64,000 nucleotides of DNA. Origin: an uncultured Aequorivita sp. (GTDB lineage Bacteria > Bacteroidota > Bacteroidia > Flavobacteriales > Flavobacteriaceae). The DNA lies in NCBI GenBank assembly GCA_937125455.1, contig CAKZLK010000057.1, forward strand, positions 1 through 64,000, in the 5' to 3' direction. Shown here piece by piece: positions 46,884 through 58,833 of the stretch. The translations under genes were made by a program, and so were the position numbers. How positions within the stretch are numbered: the stretch's first letter is position 1; every line of letters begins with the position of its first letter. A model generated the notes under the pieces. It had not been told where the DNA came from. It saw only the letters and a program-made list of their open reading frames with translations, and did no database searches.

Positions 46884-47672
46884 ATGAAAACAATTGTCTT
46901 AGTTTTTTGTGCTGGCTTTACAATCTGGAATGTATTTGGCCAGGTGGGGATTGGAACAGTAAACCCCAGTAGTTCTTCAATGCTTGAAGTTAGTAGTACC
47001 TCTGATGGCGGTGTTACTTATAAAGGTATAATGCCGCCGCGGGTGGAAGTTGCTGCAGAACGTGATTTAATAAATCCTTCCACTAACGATATTGGTTTAA
47101 TGATTTTTGTAGAGTCTATTGGATGTCTGCAAATTTGGAACGGCACAAATTGGGAAAATATTTATTGCTTAGATAAAATAGCCGTTGAACCTTGGATCAA
47201 TGAATTCCATTATGACAATGTTGGTGGAGACGTTGGCGAGTTTGTTGAGATTGCAGGACCAACAGGTTTAGATTTGAGCAATTATCGATTATTATTTTAT
47301 AATGGAGCAAATGGAACTGTTTATTACGGGCTCACTTTATCAGGAATAATTGACAATGAATCTAATAACTTTGGCGCAGTGAGTTTTCTATATAACAATA
47401 TCCAAAATGGCCCTGATGGTATTGCTTTGATTAAAATTTCCAACAGTGAAGTTCTTCAATTTATAAGTTATGAAGGTTCTTTTCTTGCCACTGCAAATGT
47501 TGCAGATGGTTTAATGTCAATAGATATTGGCGTTCAAGAATCTGATGCCACAACACCAATTGGTTATTCATTGCAACTCACGGGAACGGGTAATTCATAT
47601 GGTGACTTTAACTGGAATGCTCCAGCAGATGATTCACCGGGAGATTTGAATGTTGGGCAAATAATCAATTAA
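46884..47672 (+). CDS. Exported protein with lamin-tail-like domain
   Basis: The 262-aa protein has a signal peptide (MKTIVLVFCAGFTIWNVFGQ). A 90-residue Bacteroidota surface-protein module follows (VGIGTVNPSSSSMLEVSS, then IMPPRVEVAAERD and CLQIWNGTNWENIYC). Its C-terminal half (about 105-262) resembles a lamin-tail domain (PWINEFHYDNVGGDVGEFVEIAGPTGLDLSNY). Unlike the full-length LTD proteins there is no nuclease domain and no evident T9SS tail. It is probably a periplasmic or surface adhesin-like protein. A very strong terminator follows. Confidence 0.72.
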   Translation: MKTIVLVFCAGFTIWNVFGQVGIGTVNPSSSSMLEVSSTSDGGVTYKGIMPPRVEVAAERDLINPSTNDIGLMIFVESIGCLQIWNGTNWENIYCLDKIAVEPWINEFHYDNVGGDVGEFVEIAGPTGLDLSNYRLLFYNGANGTVYYGLTLSGIIDNESNNFGAVSFLYNNIQNGPDGIALIKISNSEVLQFISYEGSFLATANVADGLMSIDIGVQESDATTPIGYSLQLTGTGNSYGDFNWNAPADDSPGDLNVGQIIN

Positions 47673-47675
47673 AAG

Positions 47676-47705
47676 AAGCGGCGATGCATTGATGCATCGC
47701 CGCTT
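47676..47705. terminator. Strong bidirectional terminator
   Basis: A 14-bp perfect stem AAGCGGCGATGCAT/ATGCATCGCCGCTT with a 2-nt loop is flanked by A-rich and TTTT edges. It lies between the convergent lamin-tail and MuiA-like genes. Confidence 0.92.
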
Positions 47706-47711
47706 TTAAAT

Positions 47712-49817
47712 TTACAAATAAACCTTTTTAAACTTTGGATATTTCACAGTATAGGTAAACTCCTTTTTCTCTGAAGCATTCGCTTGAAGCTCAATTTTCC
47801 AACGCATAATCCCTGTTTTATCATTGTATTCGGAAGAACCTGTTTCAATATCTTCCACTTTAATTTCCTTGTTTTCAGAAATTGGAATTCTATCTTCTAC
47901 AACCAAGTTTATCGGCGTGTTTTTATTATTTTTCACTTCCAGTTTATATCCTTTATCAACAATTCTCGTTGCACCCAAAAAGGACTTGCTCTTAAAATTT
48001 TCCAGTTTTTCACGTTTCACTATTATATTTGGATCAATTCCCAAGGAAAGGTTCAAACTATCTGTTGTTGCTTGCGGATTGATAATTGATTTTCCTGCAT
48101 AACTTCCTTCAAAATAGATATTTGCTTCGCCGGTTAAAAGGTCAAATTTTTCCCAGTTTTTAATGGTTGCCGTAAGAAACACATTTTCGTTCAACTCTGG
48201 TGCTGCATAATATTGATAGTTTGCTGCAAGTTCGAAATTATCTACCTCTATCACGGTAATTTCTGCGTTGGATTTGATTGTGTATTTTTCTCTTATTTCG
48301 AAACGTGTATTGGTTATTCCAGTTTCTTTAATTGAAGTAGAAATTTCCTCAGGATTCTTTGTGGTAATTAAAACAACCCCATTTGCTCCACGAGAACCGT
48401 ATATTGCAGTTGCTGAAGCGTCTTTTAAAACTCTTATATCTGCAATTGAATTATCGTCTAAATACTGGACATCGCTTTCTGAAACTGGTTGGCCATCCAA
48501 AATATAGAGCGGGGAAGAACCCGATTTAATTGAGCCAATTCCTCTTATACGCACAAAAGTTCCTTGCCCAGGTCTTCCATTAGCGCCTGTTACTTGAACG
48601 CCCGCAGATTTTCCAGAAAGGGCTTTATCAAGCGAATTATTTGTTTTTCCATAACCAGTAACAACAACTTCCTCTAAAACAGCTCCGGGTTTTAAATTAA
48701 CATTTATTGCGCTTGCATAAATGGGAAACGTTTCAGTTTCAAAACCTACATAACTATAAGCAAGTTCACGGGAACCTTGAATATCCAAAGTATAATGTCC
48801 ATCAAAATCTGTTTGCGTACCGTTTGATGTTCCAACCTCTATCACATTTACTCCCGGCAACGGCAAACCCGTATCGTCGATAACAGTTCCGGTAACACGG
48901 CGGATCGTGGGGTTATATTTGTATTTGCTATTGCGAACGGGAGTTGTGCTTGCATAGCTTTTATTGTTGAAATTTAAATACTTCGGAAAAATTGAGGGCT
49001 TAATATTATTGGTATTTGGATCGCCCGTTGACAATATCACATTTACGTTTTCCCAATCCGTCCCGCTTTGTTGATATACATTGGCTTTATAAGAAAATTC
49101 AATAGGTGAGGAGGTATTTATCGCGCGAATATCATACAACGGAAACCAGCCCGCATTTTTAATATTGTACTTAATGTTCAAAACAAGGTTTGTGGGTTTT
49201 GGGGAATTAAGCTTCAAAGTTATTTCGCCACGCTGTTCTTTTTTGGAATCGTCCAACTTCAGTAGTTCGTTTTGATGGTCGGTGATTTTATTTTTTAAAT
49301 CGGTTATCAATTGATACTGTTTGTAAATAGCGTTTTTAATTTCTGTTGTTCGGTTTCTGCAATAAACTGACATTTCCTTAACTTTTTCAAGGGAAAGGTC
49401 CGTTGCGTCGCTATTGATTTTTTGGTTTTGCTGCAATAATTGCAATTCTTGCTTAAAACCGTCAATAACATTTTCCACCTCATTTTTTTGGGTTTCCAGA
49501 TTTTCCAAAGCATTTTTTAAAGTTTTGTATTCTTCTGAGACCTCTTTCTTTTCGAGATAATCTATATTGAATACTATTGAAAGAATGGAAGTATTTCCAA
49601 GACCCGAAATCTGAATACTATTCTCATCAATATCTGGAGAAAGGTTATTGAAAACAAAAATGTTTTCGCCTGAAATAAGGTTTACGGAAGAATTCCGCTC
49701 TATGGAAGCACCTTCCAAATAAACGGTAACTTTTTCAATTTTTGAAGTTGTAGGTTTTTCCGAATTCGCAAACAAAACGAAAGGAATTAAAACGAAGAAC
49801 AATGTAAGATTTTTCAT
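47712..49817 (-). CDS. MuiA/DUF4139 family protein with inserted carboxypeptidase-regulatory and TonB-plug domains
   Basis: The 701-aa exported protein (signal MKNLTLFFVLIPFVLFANS) has a DUF4140-type N-terminal domain (25-90), a coiled coil (95-190) and the first part of a DUF4139 beta domain (200-280, WFPLYDIRA). An inserted module at 307-487 consists of a carboxypeptidase-regulatory-like domain (VTGTVIDDTGLPLPGVNVIE) plus a SusC-like plug (LEEVVVTGYGK through GSRGANGVVLITTK). DUF4139 then resumes to the end, with no barrel. MuiA homologues are poorly understood; the plug suggests contact with TonB-dependent machinery, by inference. Confidence 0.82.
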   Translation of the reverse strand: MKNLTLFFVLIPFVLFANSEKPTTSKIEKVTVYLEGASIERNSSVNLISGENIFVFNNLSPDIDENSIQISGLGNTSILSIVFNIDYLEKKEVSEEYKTLKNALENLETQKNEVENVIDGFKQELQLLQQNQKINSDATDLSLEKVKEMSVYCRNRTTEIKNAIYKQYQLITDLKNKITDHQNELLKLDDSKKEQRGEITLKLNSPKPTNLVLNIKYNIKNAGWFPLYDIRAINTSSPIEFSYKANVYQQSGTDWENVNVILSTGDPNTNNIKPSIFPKYLNFNNKSYASTTPVRNSKYKYNPTIRRVTGTVIDDTGLPLPGVNVIEVGTSNGTQTDFDGHYTLDIQGSRELAYSYVGFETETFPIYASAINVNLKPGAVLEEVVVTGYGKTNNSLDKALSGKSAGVQVTGANGRPGQGTFVRIRGIGSIKSGSSPLYILDGQPVSESDVQYLDDNSIADIRVLKDASATAIYGSRGANGVVLITTKNPEEISTSIKETGITNTRFEIREKYTIKSNAEITVIEVDNFELAANYQYYAAPELNENVFLTATIKNWEKFDLLTGEANIYFEGSYAGKSIINPQATTDSLNLSLGIDPNIIVKREKLENFKSKSFLGATRIVDKGYKLEVKNNKNTPINLVVEDRIPISENKEIKVEDIETGSSEYNDKTGIMRWKIELQANASEKKEFTYTVKYPKFKKVYL

Positions 49818-49955
49818 GGTAATGGTTTTTATTTGTTATGGAACCAAAACTATCACCACGCTTTTAAAATAAATAATCCCTTTGAGCAAAATAGACTTTT
49901 GAAGTAGGGAACTGGTATTACTGGTTATTTGGGGAATTAATCTTATAAAAAGAAA

Positions 49956-49980
49956 GCAGGCCCCAAAACAAAAGGCCTGC
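49956..49980 (-). terminator. Terminator of the T9SS propeller/PPC gene
   Basis: A 7-bp GC-rich stem GCAGGCC/GGCCTGC with an 11-nt loop is followed on the minus strand by CTTTCTTTTT. It lies 27 nt past the stop codon of the 962-aa protein gene. Confidence 0.8.
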
Positions 49981-50007
49981 TCTACTATCTAAATCTAATT
50001 ATGAAAA

Positions 50008-52896
50008 TTAGTCCTTAATCACTTTATAGGTTCCAATTTCTCCGCCAATGGAAACCTTCATAATGTAGGTTCCTTTAGCAAGGTTTGAAACATTTAATTC
50101 CATTCTATTGGCAACATTATTCATTTCAATAACTCTTTGTCCCAAAAGATTGTAAATAGTTACATTATGTATTGTTGAAGTGGCTTTCAAATTTACCACA
50201 TCACTTGTTGGGTTTGGATAAAAACTAAAACCATCAAGCGTGTTGTCTTCAACACCAAGCACGGTAGCATTAATAAGAATATCGGTTATTCCACCTGTAT
50301 TCATTACAAAAACATAATAGGTCTGGTTTGCCAAAGTGAATATTGTAGATGAAGTACCTAGTGCACATTGATTTGACTGTTGGTCAACCAAAGTCAAATC
50401 TGTTTCCGTAGCGTTTTCATCAGCAGCGGTATAAAAAGTTACCGAACTTGCGCCTGCTGGAGTAACGATTGTAGCATCTGCATTTCCGTCAACGTTTGTT
50501 GTGAATTTATACCAAACGCCATTAGCTCCCGTTAGATCGCAATTGTTAGGGTTTCCGTTTTCAGTAGTCGCTGCAGGCATTGCAACCGCAGCATCGGTGT
50601 AAGGGAATCCTATTTGGTCAACATCAATTGCATTAGCAATCATATCGTTCGGTGGCGGCACTGGAGTACAGTCAACATTCAAAGTAAAGTTTCCAGTAGC
50701 ATTCAAGAAACCGTGAACCAAAATGTAATAAGTTGTATTTCCATCGCTTTGGAAAGAAACTTCAGATTGAAGGCCGCAAGCGTCATCATTGGCAGTTTCG
50801 CACATCAACGCTCCGCAAGTACCTGAATAAACAGTTAATTTACTGTCGTAATCCGTTCCATTACAAAGTGAAATGGTGTAATCTGTAACCAAACCACTGT
50901 TATCCGTGAATTCATACCAAACGCCAGGGCCTGTAATGTCAACGCCGCCACAGGCTGGGGCAGAAGCGTCAAAAGTTGCATTGGCAGTAGTTCCGGTAAC
51001 TGTTTCGCCACAAGCTATTGGTAAAGCATTTTCACATTCATCGTTCACTGCCGTATCTACGCAAGATATTTCCATTGTAAAGTTTCCAGCACTTGTCCCG
51101 AAACCTTCTATCATAATAAAATAGGTTGTGGTTCCGTCTGAATAGAAAGTAGCTTCAGACTGCAAGCCACAATTATCATCATTATAACCTACTTGGTTAG
51201 CAAGGTCACAGTTATCATAAATTCTAATTGCAGAATCGTAATCAGTTCCGTTACAAAGTGAAACAGTTATTATTTGTGGAGTACCGTTTCCTGTATAGCT
51301 GTAAAATTCATCGTTAGCCTCATTTCCTCCAGAATCTGTGTCATTAATAGTTTCTCCAGTAACAATGTCTCCACAGGCAACTGCAATGGCTCCACCACAA
51401 TTGTCGTTTCCGTTGTTGTAAAGGTTGTAGTGTGAAAAATAGCCATCATAAAAACCTACAACATTAATAATGTCTTCACCCGCAAAAGGATCAAAATCTA
51501 CGGAAGTACTTCTGAACGAGCCCATTGTTAAAATGTGGTTATCGTCATTAAAATACACTTGTGGAAAATCCTCAGAATTGTTGCCACCTGTAGTCCAATG
51601 GTTAACATATTCACCTGAAGTTGTCATTTCCATAAGGAAATTATCCGTTTTTCCATTTGAAGTTGTAAGTGCTTCCGCAGCGCTATTGTCAAAATCTGTT
51701 GTGCCATTAAAGGATCCGGTAGCAAAAAGGTTTCCGTTGAAGCCTTCGGTTATATCGTAAAAATGCTCAAGATCTGTAGTTTCGCCACCAAGAACGTAAC
51801 TGAAGTCATAATTTCCATTGGTATCAAATTTGCTTAAAAAAGCATCATAAGGGCCGTTGGAAACTTGGGTATTAGTGCCAGCAGTTGGGTCTAAATCAAC
51901 AGTGCCGGAGAACATTCCTTCCACATAAACCCCAGAAGGTAGGTCATTAATCGATTTAAAAACATCTAAGCCAGTACCACCAAACGCCTGACCCCAAATA
52001 TAATCACCATCGGAAGAAAGTTTTGTCATAAAAAGATCATCGCCTCCGTTTGAGGTAAAGGTTGAAGTTCCTGCATTTGGATCAAGATCTACCGTATTTC
52101 TGAATCTTCCTCCAATCAAAATGTCTTCATTCGCATCAAACTCCATATCCACTATTTCAACAATACCAGTTGATCCCAAAGTTTTTACCCAAATAAAATT
52201 CCCATCGGTATCCAGTTTCAAAAGAAATCCATCAGGCGAAGAGCCACCATTGGTTGAAAATAACTCAAACGAAGTGTTTGGGTCTGGATCAAAATCAGCA
52301 TACACAAAGCTTCCGCCAATATATACGTTTCCAGCACTGTCAACTTCTATGGACTTGGAATCTTCGTTAACATTTGCACCCGCTGGGTTACTTACTTGCT
52401 TTGCCCAAACAAAATCACCGTTGCTATCCAATTTTATAATAAAACAATCACGGCTCAAAAAAGGTGAAGGCTGGCTCAATTGGTACACGCCCGGACCCGG
52501 ATCTGCATCGAAAGATTGAGAACCAGCGCCTTGAAAGTAACCAGTTATATAAAGATTGTCATTAGCGTCCACAGCAACATCAGTTGCCACATCGTCAAAT
52601 CCGCCACCAAAACCTTTCACCCAAACTGGGTTTCCATCGTTATCATATTTCGCCAAAAAACCATCGGCATTTCCTCCTGCCCAGGTTATAGAGTTACCAA
52701 TGGTAATGGTTCCTGAGTAAATACCTGCTGCATAAACATTACCTTGGCTGTCCATAGCCGAACGATATGCAAAGTCAATGGAGCCATCGCCAAAAGTGGT
52801 AGTTCCATAATACTCTTGGGCCGAGGCAATAGCTCCCAACAGGAAGATCGCAGCCACGAGTACTGTTTTTGTAATTGTTTTCATTTTCACTTTCAC
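50008..52896 (-). CDS. Large T9SS-exported protein with SBBP-like propeller and pre-peptidase-type domains
   Basis: The 962-aa protein has a signal peptide, best from Met5 (MKTITKTVLVAAIFLLGAIASAQ). Residues 30-490 form SBBP-type beta-propeller repeats (SQGNVYAAGIYSG, ANDNLYITGYFQGAGSQ, NLFATGSFNG). Three pre-peptidase-like beta domains follow (around 505-620, 625-745, 750-880), two sharing VSLCNGTDYDS/ISLCNGTDYDS blocks. A T9SS tail ends it (FSFYPNPTSDVVNLKATS, GTYKVIKD). It starts only 23 nt after the response-regulator stop, so cotranscription with the two-component system is likely. Confidence 0.85.
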   Translation of the reverse strand: MKVKMKTITKTVLVAAIFLLGAIASAQEYYGTTTFGDGSIDFAYRSAMDSQGNVYAAGIYSGTITIGNSITWAGGNADGFLAKYDNDGNPVWVKGFGGGFDDVATDVAVDANDNLYITGYFQGAGSQSFDADPGPGVYQLSQPSPFLSRDCFIIKLDSNGDFVWAKQVSNPAGANVNEDSKSIEVDSAGNVYIGGSFVYADFDPDPNTSFELFSTNGGSSPDGFLLKLDTDGNFIWVKTLGSTGIVEIVDMEFDANEDILIGGRFRNTVDLDPNAGTSTFTSNGGDDLFMTKLSSDGDYIWGQAFGGTGLDVFKSINDLPSGVYVEGMFSGTVDLDPTAGTNTQVSNGPYDAFLSKFDTNGNYDFSYVLGGETTDLEHFYDITEGFNGNLFATGSFNGTTDFDNSAAEALTTSNGKTDNFLMEMTTSGEYVNHWTTGGNNSEDFPQVYFNDDNHILTMGSFRSTSVDFDPFAGEDIINVVGFYDGYFSHYNLYNNGNDNCGGAIAVACGDIVTGETINDTDSGGNEANDEFYSYTGNGTPQIITVSLCNGTDYDSAIRIYDNCDLANQVGYNDDNCGLQSEATFYSDGTTTYFIMIEGFGTSAGNFTMEISCVDTAVNDECENALPIACGETVTGTTANATFDASAPACGGVDITGPGVWYEFTDNSGLVTDYTISLCNGTDYDSKLTVYSGTCGALMCETANDDACGLQSEVSFQSDGNTTYYILVHGFLNATGNFTLNVDCTPVPPPNDMIANAIDVDQIGFPYTDAAVAMPAATTENGNPNNCDLTGANGVWYKFTTNVDGNADATIVTPAGASSVTFYTAADENATETDLTLVDQQSNQCALGTSSTIFTLANQTYYVFVMNTGGITDILINATVLGVEDNTLDGFSFYPNPTSDVVNLKATSTIHNVTIYNLLGQRVIEMNNVANRMELNVSNLAKGTYIMKVSIGGEIGTYKVIKD

Positions 52897-52919
52897 TTTG
52901 TTTTAATTAATAATTGGAT

Positions 52920-53618
52920 TTAATTTTTAATATTGAATTCCAGACCTATTCCGCGAACACTGTCAATACTGATGTTGGGATCGTCCTGAAGCCTTTTGCG
53001 GAGACGTGTAATGAATACATCCATACTTCTTCCTGAGAAAAAATCTGTTTTATTCCACACGTGCAGAAGAATATCGTCACGTTTTATCAATTGGTTTCTG
53101 TTTGAATAGAGATAAAAAAGCAAACGTGCTTCCTTTTCGGTGATTTTCTGGGTTTTGTCGTTAATTTTCAATTCCAGATTGGTAGCGTCGAAGGCGTATT
53201 TACCAATGGAAATGATTTCATTTTGGGGAAGTTCGGCGCGAACGGTTCGCTGTTGTTCCGCACGGTTCATAATATTTTTTATGCGAAGGATCAATTCCTC
53301 CGCCTCAAAAGGTTTTACCACATAATCATCCGCGCCAAGTTTCAAACCTTTTATTCTGTCTTCCTTTGTTTTGCGGGCTGTAAGGAATAGAAAAGGAATT
53401 TCCGGATTCACTTCAATTATTTTTTCCGCAAGTGAAAAACCGTCCATAATAGGCATCATTACATCCAGAATACAGATGTCAAAATCACCATTCTTAAAAA
53501 TTTCAAAACCTTCATTGCCATCCTTTGCCCAAGAAACAGAGAATTTATTAAGCTCCAAATATTGTTTCAGCATGGTTCCGAAATCCAAATCATCTTCTGC
53601 TAAGAGTATGTTTTTCAT
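52920..53618 (-). CDS. OmpR/PhoB-family response regulator
   Basis: The 232-aa regulator has a receiver domain (1-120) with AEDD acidic pocket and phospho-acceptor Asp52 in ICILDVMMPIMDG. The switch residues are FLTA, with Lys in DDYVVKPFEAEEL. A C-terminal winged helix follows (about 135-232: TEKEARLLFYLYSN, SGRSMDVFITRLRKRLQDD, GIGLEFN). It probably binds tandem direct repeats such as the TTAAC sites found upstream of its own operon. Its start overlaps the kinase stop by 4 nt (ATGA), a coupled pair similar in type to RprXY. Confidence 0.94.
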   Translation of the reverse strand: MKNILLAEDDLDFGTMLKQYLELNKFSVSWAKDGNEGFEIFKNGDFDICILDVMMPIMDGFSLAEKIIEVNPEIPFLFLTARKTKEDRIKGLKLGADDYVVKPFEAEELILRIKNIMNRAEQQRTVRAELPQNEIISIGKYAFDATNLELKINDKTQKITEKEARLLFYLYSNRNQLIKRDDILLHVWNKTDFFSGRSMDVFITRLRKRLQDDPNISIDSVRGIGLEFNIKN

Positions 53619-55000
53619 ATTATTGGAATTTTAATGGTGAATATTGAGCCTTTGTTGGCTTCGCTTTCCACAGAAATGCTTCCGCCATGGGCTTTTATTA
53701 TTTGCTTTGTGTAATAAAGTCCCAGCCCCAAACCTTTGTAATTATGGGTGTCTTTTTCGCTCACGCGATAAAATTTCTCAAAAATGAAGCGTTGGTATTT
53801 TGGGGAAATGCCAATTCCGTTATCCTTTATGCTGATGTAATGTGTGGAATCAGTTTTGTCAATTCCGTAGCTTACCGTCAATTCAGTACCGCCGTATTTT
53901 ATTGCATTGTTCAGCAGATTTATTATTGCCGTGCTTAAATAGAATTTGTCGGCTTCAAGCGCAATTCCAGTACTGTCAATGTTTCTGTGAAGTTTTATTT
54001 CTGAAGAATTTACGGAGAGCAAATAATCGTCCAGCAATTCATTCATAAAAATGCTGCCATTAAAGGTTTCCTTTGAAAGCTGGATTTCCTGATAGCCCAA
54101 ACTACTTTGCAGTACTTGGTCTATCAGCTTTTGGAGTCTGGTATTTTGTCTGTCAATTATTTGTACCGCACCATCGGCAATTTCCTTATTTCCATTGGCG
54201 TGTTCGCTAGTCAAGGTTTTGGTTGCAAGTGAAAGCGTAGAAAGGGGAGTTTTAAGTTCGTGGGTAATGTTGTTGATGAAATCTGTCTTTATTTCAGCCA
54301 CACGTTTCTGTTTCATCAAATTTTGAATGGAATAATAGAGTAGCCCAACTACAAATAAAAACAACAAGCAGGAAGCAACAAATAAAACTGAAAGTTCCTT
54401 TGTTAAAACGGAATTCCAGTTTAAAACATTCATAAAAATGCTGGTCTTAAAATTAAGCTTAAAAAAATCTGGATTGCCGTTATTTACGAAATCATGATCC
54501 TCTTGCCAGTTACTATAAGTAATTAGTGCGGCATTCTGAGAGTCAAAATTTTCACCGAGCAACATGATTTTATCCGGATCATCTTCTTTGTATAACGTAT
54601 CTGTATTTCCCAAACTGTCACTAACTGAGATTGAGCTTACAGACTTTTTAAATTGAATATCAACTCCGGGCATTTCAGCCTCCATTCCTTTTTTATAAAC
54701 CGCCAAAAAGCCAGGATTTATTTCCTCGGTTTTTTGTTTTAAACGTTGAAGAGCATCCTTTTTAGAAATTTCTCCTTTTTTTAATGCCTCCAATTGTGTA
54801 AAGAAATCGTTGCGGTATAACCACATTATGGAATCTACTTCTTTTGTATAATATACTTTTGAAATAGCCATCCTAGCATCAATGCTGAACGTTTTTTTCT
54901 TTAGTTCGTAGGTATTGTAAATAAGATATCCCTGAATGCCGATAAGCGCGATCAGGGTAAAAATTGAAATGGCGACTAAGCCTTTAAACTTCAGTTGCAT
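53615..55000 (-). CDS. Membrane sensor histidine kinase
   Basis: The 461-aa kinase has two membrane helices (about 8-28 and 203-224) enclosing a 175-residue periplasmic sensor domain. HisKA follows, with phospho-acceptor His247 in NNITHELKTPLSTLS. The HATPase_c domain contains INLLNNAIKYGG (N box), IKDNGIGISPKYQ (G1) and GLGLGLYYTKQII (G2). No HAMP domain is evident. The sensor part has no domain I recognise. It heads an operon with the response regulator and probably the T9SS propeller gene. Confidence 0.93.
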   Translation of the reverse strand: MQLKFKGLVAISIFTLIALIGIQGYLIYNTYELKKKTFSIDARMAISKVYYTKEVDSIMWLYRNDFFTQLEALKKGEISKKDALQRLKQKTEEINPGFLAVYKKGMEAEMPGVDIQFKKSVSSISVSDSLGNTDTLYKEDDPDKIMLLGENFDSQNAALITYSNWQEDHDFVNNGNPDFFKLNFKTSIFMNVLNWNSVLTKELSVLFVASCLLFLFVVGLLYYSIQNLMKQKRVAEIKTDFINNITHELKTPLSTLSLATKTLTSEHANGNKEIADGAVQIIDRQNTRLQKLIDQVLQSSLGYQEIQLSKETFNGSIFMNELLDDYLLSVNSSEIKLHRNIDSTGIALEADKFYLSTAIINLLNNAIKYGGTELTVSYGIDKTDSTHYISIKDNGIGISPKYQRFIFEKFYRVSEKDTHNYKGLGLGLYYTKQIIKAHGGSISVESEANKGSIFTIKIPII

Positions 55001-55046
55001 GACGTAAATGTATTGTTTAGGTGAAAAGTTAAGGAAATAACGCGAG

Positions 55047-55065
55047 TCGTTAACTTATCGTTAAC
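55047..55065 (-). promoter_or_regulatory. TCGTTAAC direct repeat upstream of the kinase-regulator operon
   Basis: TCGTTAAC-TTA-TCGTTAAC is a perfect 8-bp direct repeat with an 11-bp period, 47-65 nt before the kinase start. An 11-bp period is typical of OmpR-family regulator sites. On the coding strand it reads TTAACGA-N4-TTAACGA. Confidence 0.5.
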
Positions 55066-55134
55066 CTAACATATTCTTTGAACTTATGATTTTCATGACC
55101 GATTTTGTGTCTTGAATAGTAAGTAAACAATAAA

Positions 55135-55166
55135 AAGCCCCTTTCCAAAAAGATGAAAAGAGGCTT
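55135..55166 (-). terminator. Terminator of the repeat-rich T9SS gene
   Basis: On the minus strand AAGCCTCTTT pairs with AAAGGGGCTT (10 bp, one G-U) and is followed by TTTTTATTG. It lies 29 nt past the stop codon. Confidence 0.75.
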
Positions 55167-55194
55167 AAAAAAAAACAATTTAAAGGGAGTAAAT

Positions 55195-58100
55195 TTATTG
55201 TTTTATAATTTTAAAGGTTTCCACAGAATTGTAGCCTAAAACCTTCACAAGATAAATTCCACTTGAAAGTCCAGAAACATTAAGTTCTTCCTTAGTGCTG
55301 TTTACTGCTTTATCAATAATAAGTTGTCCATTAATATTGAAAAGCATAATGCGTTCAAAAGAATCCGGGGATTTTATATGAAGTACATCCTGTACCGGGT
55401 TAGGGTAGTAAGTGTACTCTTGTACAGTGGAATGGTCTTCAACTCCCAAAATGGTTGGTTCTAATTTTAAAATGAAACCAACGCGTTGGTTGTTGGCATC
55501 CCTTCCTGCACCAACAATGGTAGTTCCATCTGCAGAAATATTTAAAGGAAGCGACATAACAATACCTTGGGTATCAATTCCTAAAGAAGTTGCATACGTA
55601 TTTAAATCTGTTACGCCTAGTGCTTCCGTCCAAATGAAACCACTTCCAAACAAGGCGGGGCCTTGCGGACGGTAATAACCAACCATAATGCTTCCATCTG
55701 CAGAAACTCCTGTTGTATTGCCTCTCCATCCTGCTTGTAATGGCGGACCAATATTGATTAGACCAGTTGCTTCACTCCATCTATAGGCTTGGTAGCTATT
55801 TGTAGAGCTTCCTTCGCCACCTACCCATACGCCATCATCAGAAATTGCTGCTGCGGCCAAGGCTCTTTCACCCGTTGGGAAATAAATAAGCTGTTGCACT
55901 CCGTTGGTCCAAATAGCTGCTTGACGAAAACCAGTTTCGCTATCCTGCCATCCAACAATTACGGAACCGTCTTCACTTACGGCATCGGCCCTTGTGCTTC
56001 TATCAGTTACTGTAGAGCCTAAATCAATTACACCTGTAGTCTCTGTCCAAGAAATTGCGTGGGCACCACCGGCAGATAGCCATCCTAAACCAACAACTGT
56101 CTCGCCATCACCTGAGATTCCCCAAGAAGAGCTAATTTGGTCTCCGCTTTGTCCTCCAATCCCGCCGAGGGGATTCCAAGTTTGTGTTGGCACGTCATAA
56201 ATTGACATTTCTTTTGCGTTACTCGCAGGGTTCAAATATGGGCCGACAATTTTAGTGCCGTCGTTAGACATTTCTACATCGCCTCCGGTTCCATTTCCGG
56301 GAGGAAGGCCACCAATACTTTGAACGCCAGTGCTTTCAACCCACATAAAGTTTTCAGAAGTATTATAACCGGCAGCTGCAGAACCATTTGCGTTTACACC
56401 AGTTATGGTTGAATTTGGCACAAGTATCAACTCGCCGCCCGAAGGAATAACGTTTACTGAAACATTCATATCAAACAACAAAAACCCTCCGGCTACACTA
56501 CCGCCCATTGCGTGAACAGAAACATAATACTCTCCTGAAGTTGTGGGGGTAAATGTTTCCGAAGCAGTGTATGCTAGGGTTTTTAGGTCGTTTCCGTCAT
56601 TTTGACCAGGAAAAGTACCTTGTTGAAGAATATCATTGTAAGTCCCTAAAACAGTTTGGAATGCTGCAGATGAATTAGGTTCGTCCGTAATCACCAATTC
56701 AAAGTTTTCTGAGGCTGTACCGTTTCCTAAGTTAAGGGCGTTATAATCTGTTTCAATAAGATATTCAGTTCCAGCTACCAGTTCTATTTTTTGGGTAAAT
56801 GCCCAATCGTCTTTGGCTGTCATTACTGCGTTTTGCGGAAGCATTATTAAAACTGGATCGTTATTTCCGTCACCGGTAATATCGGTTTGGTCGTTGTATG
56901 CCCATACAGGCAACATATTGTCAGTATCCTCATACTCCCAACACTCTGGGGTTCCATTACTCATGTCTTCAGTATATGGCACGGTTGCAGCTGTACAAAG
57001 AGGTACTATTGGGTCTGTGTTCACGGTTACCTCAAAAAGCGCGAATCCGCCAGCCTCGTTACCTGTAGCACCAGTAGCGTGTATGGCAACATAATATTCA
57101 CCAGAAACACTTGGCGTAAAAGCTTCTTCTGAACGATACGCTTGTGATTTTACGTCATTTCCATTGTTTTGCCCTGGAAAAACGCCTTGTTGCGAAATAT
57201 CGGTATAAGTTCCCAATACTTCACTGAAAATTGCTGTTGAGTTTTGGGCATCGGTAATTACTAATTCAAAACTTTCAAAAGCAGTTGTATTTCCTAAATT
57301 AAGCGCGTTGTAAAGTGCTGAAACATAATATTGTGTTCCGGCCTCCATTTGTATTTTCTTTGAAAACGCCCAATCGTCCTTTTCTACAAACTGTACGGCT
57401 TGGGGAATCAATCCGTAAAAAGGATCGTCCGTTCCATCGCCATCTAAATCAATGGCATTCAAATAGGTCCATTCCGGTGAAATTTCATCTGTATCTTCAT
57501 ATAACCAGCAATCAGGATCGCCGTTGCTGAAATCTTCTAGATAGGGAACGGTTGCCGCTGTAGAACAATCAATCGGCGCTTCTTCCACAGAGGTATTGAA
57601 CACCAAGAAAACGCCAGAATCCGTTCCTGAAGCACCAAGCGCGTGGATGGCTACATAATATTCACCAGAAGTTGTTGGTGTGAAATTTTCCAAAGCATTG
57701 TAAGCATTTGTTTTAATATCGTTACCGCTTCCATTACCTGGAAAAGTACCTTGTTGCAAAATATTATTATAGGTGCCAATAACCTCGCTAAAAGTTGCCG
57801 TTGAATTTGGAGCGTCAGTAATAACAAGTTCAAAATTCTCGTCGGCAACTGCATTTCCGAGGCCTAAGGAATTATAGTCAATCGAAATTTGGTATGCTGT
57901 TCCCGCATCCATCTGGATTTTTCTGGTAAAGGCCCAATCGTCTTTTTCCCTGTTCGAAACATTTTGTGGAATAAGCCCAACAAATGGATCGTTGGTTCCA
58001 TTTCCGGTAAGGTCGATGCTGTTGTTATAAGCCCAAATTGGATTTGCATTGTCTGTGTTCTCATACGTCCAACAAACTGGAGCTCCTGCACTAAAATCTT

Positions 58101-58755
58101 CAAAATATGGAACTGCAATCGCAACAGAACAATCTATTGGCGCTTCTTCCACAGAAGTATTAAATACCAAAAAAACACCAGAATCCGTTCCTGAAGCTCC
58201 AAGGGCATGGATGGCTACATAATATTCGCCAGAAGTTGTTGGTGTGAAATTTTCCAAAGCATTATATGCATTAGTTTTAATGTCGTTACCGCTTCCATTA
58301 CCTGGAAATGTACCTTGTTGTAAAATATTGTTATAGGTGCCAATAACCTCACTAAAAGTTGCTGTTGAGTTTGGAGCGTCAGTAATAACAAGTTCAAAAT
58401 TCTCGTCGGCAACTGCATTTCCAAGGCCTAAGGAATTATAATCAACTGAAATTTGGTACTCTGTGCCAGCTTCCATTTGGATTTTTCTGGTAAAGGCCCA
58501 ATCGTCTTTTTCCCTGTTCGAAACATTTTGAGGAATAAGCCCAACAAATGGATCGTTGGTTCCGTTTCCGGTAAGGTCAATGCTGTTGTTATAAACCCAA
58601 ACTGGATTTGCATTGTCTGTATTTTCATACGTCCAGCAAGCGGGAGCACCCGCGCTAAAATCTTCGTTGTAAGGCACAGTGGCTGCGACCGTACAATCCT
58701 GTGCAAAACCCACGGTGGAAAATGCAAGGAAAATTATTAGTAAAAAATTTTTCAT
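55195..58755 (-). CDS. Large T9SS-exported protein with four ~190-aa repeats and HAF-like propeller
   Basis: The 1186-aa protein has a signal peptide (MKNFLLIIFLAFSTVGFAQ). Four tandem beta-sandwich repeats follow (20-207, 208-395, 396-585, 586-766), each with a CxxAxxVPYxEDxS start, KDDWAF and FELVITD blocks and a GEYYVxxHA end. A HAF-type repeat region (about 785-1095: ISGDGETVVGLGW, SEDGSVIVGWQDSE, SADGSIMVGYYR) and a T9SS tail (YTYYPNPVQDVLHIKS, ETFKIIKQ) complete it. It is probably a surface adhesin or matrix protein; the ligand is unknown. Repeats 1 and 2 are nearly identical even in DNA. Confidence 0.85.
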   Translation of the reverse strand: MKNFLLIIFLAFSTVGFAQDCTVAATVPYNEDFSAGAPACWTYENTDNANPVWVYNNSIDLTGNGTNDPFVGLIPQNVSNREKDDWAFTRKIQMEAGTEYQISVDYNSLGLGNAVADENFELVITDAPNSTATFSEVIGTYNNILQQGTFPGNGSGNDIKTNAYNALENFTPTTSGEYYVAIHALGASGTDSGVFLVFNTSVEEAPIDCSVAIAVPYFEDFSAGAPVCWTYENTDNANPIWAYNNSIDLTGNGTNDPFVGLIPQNVSNREKDDWAFTRKIQMDAGTAYQISIDYNSLGLGNAVADENFELVITDAPNSTATFSEVIGTYNNILQQGTFPGNGSGNDIKTNAYNALENFTPTTSGEYYVAIHALGASGTDSGVFLVFNTSVEEAPIDCSTAATVPYLEDFSNGDPDCWLYEDTDEISPEWTYLNAIDLDGDGTDDPFYGLIPQAVQFVEKDDWAFSKKIQMEAGTQYYVSALYNALNLGNTTAFESFELVITDAQNSTAIFSEVLGTYTDISQQGVFPGQNNGNDVKSQAYRSEEAFTPSVSGEYYVAIHATGATGNEAGGFALFEVTVNTDPIVPLCTAATVPYTEDMSNGTPECWEYEDTDNMLPVWAYNDQTDITGDGNNDPVLIMLPQNAVMTAKDDWAFTQKIELVAGTEYLIETDYNALNLGNGTASENFELVITDEPNSSAAFQTVLGTYNDILQQGTFPGQNDGNDLKTLAYTASETFTPTTSGEYYVSVHAMGGSVAGGFLLFDMNVSVNVIPSGGELILVPNSTITGVNANGSAAAGYNTSENFMWVESTGVQSIGGLPPGNGTGGDVEMSNDGTKIVGPYLNPASNAKEMSIYDVPTQTWNPLGGIGGQSGDQISSSWGISGDGETVVGLGWLSAGGAHAISWTETTGVIDLGSTVTDRSTRADAVSEDGSVIVGWQDSETGFRQAAIWTNGVQQLIYFPTGERALAAAAISDDGVWVGGEGSSTNSYQAYRWSEATGLINIGPPLQAGWRGNTTGVSADGSIMVGYYRPQGPALFGSGFIWTEALGVTDLNTYATSLGIDTQGIVMSLPLNISADGTTIVGAGRDANNQRVGFILKLEPTILGVEDHSTVQEYTYYPNPVQDVLHIKSPDSFERIMLFNINGQLIIDKAVNSTKEELNVSGLSSGIYLVKVLGYNSVETFKIIKQ
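57571..58134 (-). repeat. Coding repeat unit 2 of the T9SS protein (564 bp)
   Basis: This encodes residues 208-395. It aligns without gaps to unit 1 (58135-58698), differing at scattered, mostly third-codon positions. It shares exact runs of about 50 nt around the codons for KIRKIQ/KDDWAFTRK. Confidence 0.9.
58135..58698 (-). repeat. Coding repeat unit 1 of the T9SS protein (564 bp)
   Basis: This encodes residues 20-207 and has the same length as unit 2. Units 3 (57001-57570) and 4 (about 56458-57000) are related at protein level but clearly diverged in DNA, so the 1/2 pair reflects a recent duplication or gene conversion. Confidence 0.9.
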
Positions 58756-58808
58756 TGTGAATTGTTTTTTTGATTCGGGGCTAATGTAAAAAGATATGTT
58801 GCTCGCTT

Positions 58809-58833
58809 CGGTTAATGAACGGTTAACGGTTAA
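58809..58833 (-). promoter_or_regulatory. CGGTTAA repeats upstream of the repeat-rich T9SS gene
   Basis: CGGTTAA occurs three times, at 58809, 58820 and 58827 (periods 11 and 7), 54-78 nt before the start codon. On the coding strand the spaced pair reads TTAACCG-N4-TTAACCG, resembling the repeat before the kinase operon. Confidence 0.5.

Follow-up and report, generated by a model that had tools for sequence, protein, structure and literature searches.

Introduction

Several response regulators of the OmpR family recognise half-sites with a TTAA core. SaeR-P of Staphylococcus aureus binds the sequence GTTAAN6GTTAA, in which the TTAA appears essential (PMC5083920). The corresponding words are TTAA-N7-TTAA for CtrA (PMC11264516), TTTAAG-N5-TTTAAG for HP1043 (PMC8345958) and a YTTAAK repeat for PmrA (PMC10927774). 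In the Bacteroidota, PorX/PorY is a known two-component system linked to the type IX secretion system (T9SS) (PMC8050853). The OmpR-family operators of Flavobacteriia appear to be largely unmapped; we found none of the kind described below in the literature searched, which covers few subscription journals. Here, we analyse a 64,000-nucleotide stretch of DNA (the window) from an uncultured Aequorivita sp. (contig CAKZLK010000057.1, positions 1 to 64,000). The window encodes a sensor histidine kinase (HK), a response regulator (RR) and, beside them, a 1186-aa T9SS-exported protein. Two tandem repeats, one before the kinase gene and one before the gene for the 1186-aa protein, are very probably operators of the OmpR-family regulator encoded at 52920–53618, which would control both its own operon and the surface protein. 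The specific 19-bp operator sequence, the geometry of its promoter and a brief list of targets can all be stated exactly.

The window system and SaeRS share an identical half-site word, an 11-bp period, an OmpR-family regulator and secreted or surface protein targets; some promoters also have several GTTAA repeats. Conversely, the window kinase has a periplasmic domain of ~180 aa, whereas SaeS is without a large periplasmic domain. The phylum and promoter type also differ, since the window system uses the −7 box TAnnTTTG found in Bacteroidota (PMC2483708, PMC7366714). The likeness to the SaeR word may be convergent. CtrA, HP1043 and PmrA are also OmpR-family regulators with TTAA-core half-sites, and CtrA and HP1043 share the 11-bp period. 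However, their flanking bases, phyla, targets and promoter elements are different. Like PorX/PorY, the window system belongs to the Bacteroidota and is tied to the T9SS. PorX controls secretion-machine genes and has a PglZ-type output domain; the window regulator contains only Response_reg and Trans_reg_C domains and its predicted targets are cargo proteins. RprX/RprY of Bacteroidota is the closest named regulator family, and GTTAA-N6-GTTAA occurs at RprX-like loci. The window regulator nevertheless falls under the RprY cut-off, and both the flanks and the distance to the −7 box (32–33 rather than 41–43 nt) differ.

Results

Sequence and position of the two repeats

The initial annotation placed a TTAACGA repeat before the kinase start and a TTAACCG repeat before the 1186-aa gene, and both are borne out. 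The kinase-side repeat, GGTTAACGATAAGTTAACGA, occupies positions 55066–55047 of the minus strand, 47–66 nt before the HK ATG (55000). Read in the sense of the gene, the T9SS-side repeat is TTTTAACCGTTAACCGTTCATTAACCG and lies 54–78 nt before the ATG of the 1186-aa gene (58755). All features are listed in Table 1. The 11-bp period proposed for both repeats holds for the kinase pair and for two of the T9SS-side copies; it fails for the third copy, which is offset by 7 bp. We rejected this third TTAACCG as a conserved part of the site: it is common to congener G012 only and is absent in four other genera.

The two sites match, as proposed, in that both fit one consensus, and their best common register is GGTTAAYG-N3-RGTTAAYG. 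The match required one refinement. In this register the T9SS site and the gene behind it are on opposite strands, and the two operators differ in direction relative to the genes that they precede. We discarded a simple parallel reading of the T9SS site; the opposite strand is the better fit to the consensus and agrees with the congener and four other genera.

The pattern RGTTAAYG-N3-RGTTAAYG matched the window twice, exactly at 55048–55066 and 58810–58828, where the SaeR-type word GTTAA-N6-GTTAA is also exact. There were no matches in 100 shuffles. Exact TTAAC-N6-TTAAC gave three strand-matches in the window, all at these two loci (expected 0.31; 0 of 100 shuffles reached three). A loose form of the word, with one mismatch permitted, was not enriched in the window (8 observed, 10.9 expected).

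Table 1. Positions of genes, putative operators and predicted promoter elements in the window.
Feature	Position	Strand	Description
Putative operator 1	55048..55066	−	GGTTAACG-ATA-AGTTAACG; two half-sites, 11-bp period; precedes HK-RR-962aa operon
Putative operator 2	58810..58828	+	GGTTAATG-AAC-GGTTAACG; opposite strand to the 1186-aa T9SS gene downstream of it
Third copy, CGGTTAA	58827..58833	+	7-bp offset; not conserved outside two congeners
Predicted −7 box, HK promoter	55005..55012	−	TACATTTA; 42 nt from second half-site; one mismatch to TAnnTTTG
Predicted −7 box, 1186-aa gene	58781..58788	−	TACATTAG; 27 nt after proximal TTAAC
Sensor histidine kinase (HK), 461 aa	53615..55000	−	HisKA + HATPase_c; periplasmic domain about residues 28–206
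OmpR/PhoB-family response regulator (RR), 232 aa	52920..53618	−	4-nt overlap with the end of HK
T9SS-secreted SBBP-repeat protein, 962 aa as listed	50008..52896	−	Third gene of the probable operon, 23 nt after RR
1186-aa T9SS protein	55195..58755	−	Signal peptide, four ~190-aa jelly-roll-like repeats, HAF-type repeats, Por_Secre_tail

Conservation upstream of the kinase gene

Our sample comprised 251 genomes of the family (Flavobacteriaceae, to judge from the relatives that carry names), 25 of which have the kinase (E ≤ 1e-55). We examined 25 HK-ortholog loci, with the window's own left out and one genome contributing two. An 11-bp tandem was present within 400 nt upstream of HK at 22 of the 25 loci, compared with 7 of 1019 (0.7%) ordinary genes of the window genome. 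One of the three loci lacking the tandem (G228) is a partial match in which the promoter is not seen. The same-genus orthologs of G003, G019, G022 and G024 keep GGTTAACGnTAAGTTAACG at about −66 to −48, and G012 does so with one change. The operator is retained in these congeners although the gene upstream of it changes, and the flanks of the orthologs are unrelated. Distant orthologs (Formosa, Cellulophaga, Psychroserpens, Kordia, Dokdonia, Flavobacterium, Moheibacter, a Saprospiraceae metagenome-assembled genome and Mucilaginibacter) have half-sites, two or three in number, spaced at exactly 11 bp; in most cases no other such sites occur in 15 kb. The gene order DCC, HK, RR and 962-aa homolog, with MutS2 upstream, is kept in nine further genomes from several genera. 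Of the 25 genomes that have the system, 20 contain RGTTAAYGN3RGTTAAYG; of the 226 that lack it, 3 do (Fisher 5e-22).

Extra copies of the operator also occur. At four loci, L305, L307, L314 and L315 (genomes G137, G078, G147 and G141, respectively), the 19-mer GGTTAACGATAAGTTAACG, equal to the window kinase operator, is found ~4 kb past the kinase, in the gap separating a divergent pair of genes for secreted proteins. Elsewhere, extra operators precede the gene after RR or lie near a divergent gene (e.g. DUF5916, Cellulophaga; loci L108–L113, L128 and, in G009, L245). Judged from these copies, regulon neighbours differ by clade.

Comparison of G024 (L246) with window positions 47000–55068 gave 97% identity ending exactly at the operator; MutS2, beyond this point, is about 90% identical. 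The 1186-aa gene sits at the junction where the high identity stops. Hence, the kinase operator marks the boundary of an insertion, deletion or recombination.

Spacing and enrichment in the genome

Genome statistics rest on a 1.204-Mb sample, about a third of the genome, together with pattern searches. Same-strand GTTAA pairs at 11 bp numbered 17, of which 15 were intergenic. Intergenic pairs at the other 39 spacings (5–44 bp) averaged 1.2, with a maximum of 3. Pairs of the longer word GTTAAYG occurred at the 11-bp spacing only, and just at the two window sites. About 25 of 30 TTAAC-N6-TTAAC sites examined are intergenic, mostly 40–110 nt before a start. The initial annotation implied an excess of such sites upstream of genes, and 11-bp pairs were indeed strongly enriched against the spacing controls.

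A plain genome count returned 37 sites for TTAAC-N6-TTAAC and 37 for the reversed word, and so no excess by that control. The reversed word was uninformative because its half-site, CAATT, outnumbers GTTAA 2.7-fold; spacing controls were used instead. A loose pattern allowing three mismatches was swamped by chance matches. The triple-copy pattern gave few matches; all were intergenic and ten were at a kinase of the same kind as the window HK.

Promoter geometry

The predicted HK −7 box starts 12 nt before the ATG and its end is 4 nt before the ATG. Therefore, the kinase transcript probably has little or no leader. Across HK loci, the second GTTAA was 41–43 nt from an exact TAnnTTTG at 31 of 51 and from TAnnTTTG or TAnnTTTA at 43 of 51; the expected frequency of the box is about 0.04 per position, and the 51 loci are not fully independent, several coming from related Flavobacterium species. 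HK loci of Flavobacterium have one further half-site, a third, which is 11 bp closer to the −7 box (30 nt). The site before the 1186-aa gene was 27 nt from its −7 box in 6 of 6 genomes. Inverted sites 27 nt from TAnnTTTG recur elsewhere in the window genome (L017, L020). The autoregulation suggested in the initial annotation gains support from the kinase loci, where the tandem persists amid unrelated flanks and, mostly, with constant spacing to the −7 box.

The 1186-aa surface protein

Full-length homologs of the 1186-aa protein were found in 5 of the 251 family genomes, and 5 of 5 have both the two-component system and the site. In G088, G104, G113 and G123 the site is 60–77 nt before the homolog (56–66% identical) and inverted, as it also is in the window; the G123 site comprises four half-sites. 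These four homologs are not linked to the system, being on another contig or about 460 kb away. Because the unlinked homologs carry the site, and all occur with the system, the 1186-aa gene appears to belong to a conserved regulon rather than to be a bystander beside the system. Control of the surface protein, as first proposed, is thus supported by the pattern in four further genera, and sites are kept in related genomes before HK orthologs and 1186-aa homologs alike.

Within the genus, the gene is present only in G000 (the window genome) and G012, between the DCC-family gene and HK. The model of the repeat domain is weak (pLDDT 63) and matches jelly-roll, gingipain cleaved-adhesin and carbohydrate-binding module domains. 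That the protein is an adhesin is only a fair guess from this model.

The two-component operon

The 4-nt overlap of HK and RR, and the position of the 962-aa gene 23 nt after RR, indicate that the three genes probably form one operon. Orthologs of the 962-aa protein begin at MKTITK. The RR has Response_reg (97.2 bits) and Trans_reg_C winged helix (58.3 bits) domains, both above Pfam cut-offs, as expected of the OmpR/PhoB family. Its phospho-acceptor, D52, is invariant in six orthologs. Against the NCBIfam RprY equivalog NF051850, the nearest named family, the RR scored 234.2 bits, below the curated cut-off of 370. The Por_Secre_tail sorting domain, which marks type A cargo of the T9SS at the C-terminus (TIGR04183 / PF18962), scored 50.0 bits on the 1186-aa protein and 51.1 bits on the 962-aa protein (cut-off 23). 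For the HK sensor, a folded domain of ~180 aa is predicted between two putative membrane helices (pLDDT 93); a fold search with this model matched no solved structure (E > 0.1).

Across the DNA encoding the periplasmic domain (window ~54400–54850), G000 and G012 are only 54–55% identical, compared with 74–95% on either side. The adjacent RR is 98% identical in amino acid sequence. This suggests exchange of the HK input domain, giving a mosaic sensor allele. In G022 (L034, around 3221) the RR gene has an in-frame stop after ...EDRIKGL; the kinase, operator and 962-aa gene are intact.

The paralogous RprX-like system

Loci of an RprX-like paralog have TGTTAA-N6-GTTAA 32–33 nt from the −7 box in 18 of the 18 cases having a tandem. 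The window genome's own RprX-like kinase (G000 C33:31854, L016) has a GTTAAC-N5-GTTAA tandem 33 nt from TACTTTTG, and the two systems coexist in this genome. Since RprX-like loci use the same word at 32–33 nt, the core word is common to both systems, and spacing plus flanks separate them in the sequences compared.

Discussion

The locus is best read as an OmpR-family system that regulates itself and a small, conserved set of surface-protein genes, and this reading is strongly supported computationally. The earlier finding is right in substance, is somewhat stronger than first claimed and defines a testable regulon. In the mechanism that we propose, the kinase would sense an envelope signal and then phosphorylate the regulator. 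Dimers of the phosphorylated regulator would bind two GGTTAAYG half-sites (two to four in relatives), one helical turn apart, and would so be placed on one face of the DNA just upstream of the −33 region. At 55048–55066 the regulator would raise expression of its own operon, comprising the kinase, the regulator and the 962-aa secreted protein. At 58810–58828 it would switch the 1186-aa surface protein. Binding of the encoded regulator to the tandem half-sites is highly probable. Given binding, activation from just upstream of −33 is the likely usual effect, and phosphorylation would presumably be needed.

Some observations weigh against this mechanism. The evidence is of DNA pattern and conservation. 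Part of the association between site and system is built in, many sites being at the kinase itself. Four congeners that have the system (G003, G019, G022 and G024) lack the 1186-aa gene, and G022 keeps its operator intact despite the stop in its regulator gene. With the T9SS site running opposite to its gene, the sign of regulation could differ. Finally, GTTAA-N6-GTTAA is also present at RprX-like loci, so another regulator could bind.

The question of sign leads to a variant of our explanation, rather than an exclusive alternative, in which the regulator is a repressor, or is an activator at one promoter and a repressor at the other. Such a difference would fit a site in reverse orientation, 27 nt from the −7 box, at the 1186-aa gene and a forward site at 41–43 nt at HK. 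However, both operators lie clear of the predicted −7 box and start, activators usually sit just upstream of −33, and the inverted 27-nt arrangement is found elsewhere in the same genome. We therefore regard this variant as unlikely.

A different OmpR-family regulator, for example an RprY-like paralog, could instead be the main binder, in which case the kinase operon and T9SS gene would be part of a broader envelope regulon. In P. gingivalis, RprY is a regulator that binds at its own promoter (PMC3646045). RprY is also the NCBIfam family closest to the window regulator, though below cut-off, and TGTTAAY-N5-GTTAA lies upstream of RprX-like kinases in many genera as well as in the window genome (C33). 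Yet RprX-like kinases are near universal in relatives, and the full pattern is all but confined to genomes with the window's system (the 3 of 226 above). Moreover, paralog sites have other flanks and a shorter distance to the −7 box, and full-length 1186-aa homologs are found only alongside the window's system. Control by a paralog is thus distinctly improbable. That the repeats arose by chance, or are a generic AT-rich promoter feature with no specific regulator, can be dismissed almost entirely: TTAA words are frequent between genes and the genome count equals that of the reversed word, but the 11-bp spacing specificity, deep conservation, fixed −7 distance and tracking of the two-component system contradict it.

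With the encoded regulator as the preferred binder, the two-component system is linked, across five genera, with specific surface proteins exported by the T9SS. More tentatively, GTTAA-N6-GTTAA could be a general OmpR-family promoter code across Bacteroidota. Flanks, orientation and an invariable spacing to the −7 box would distinguish the paralogs (41–43 nt for the window system, 32–33 nt for RprX-like systems and 27 nt for inverted sites). The window system would then be a compact module of sensor and surface protein, with its kinase input domain swapped between strains by recombination. The same spacing analysis should allow other OmpR-family operators of the phylum to be read from sequence.

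Separately, the window encodes a 701-aa protein (47712–49817) with an unusual combination of DUF4139/DUF4140, an inserted carboxypeptidase-regulatory-like domain and a TonB-receptor plug.

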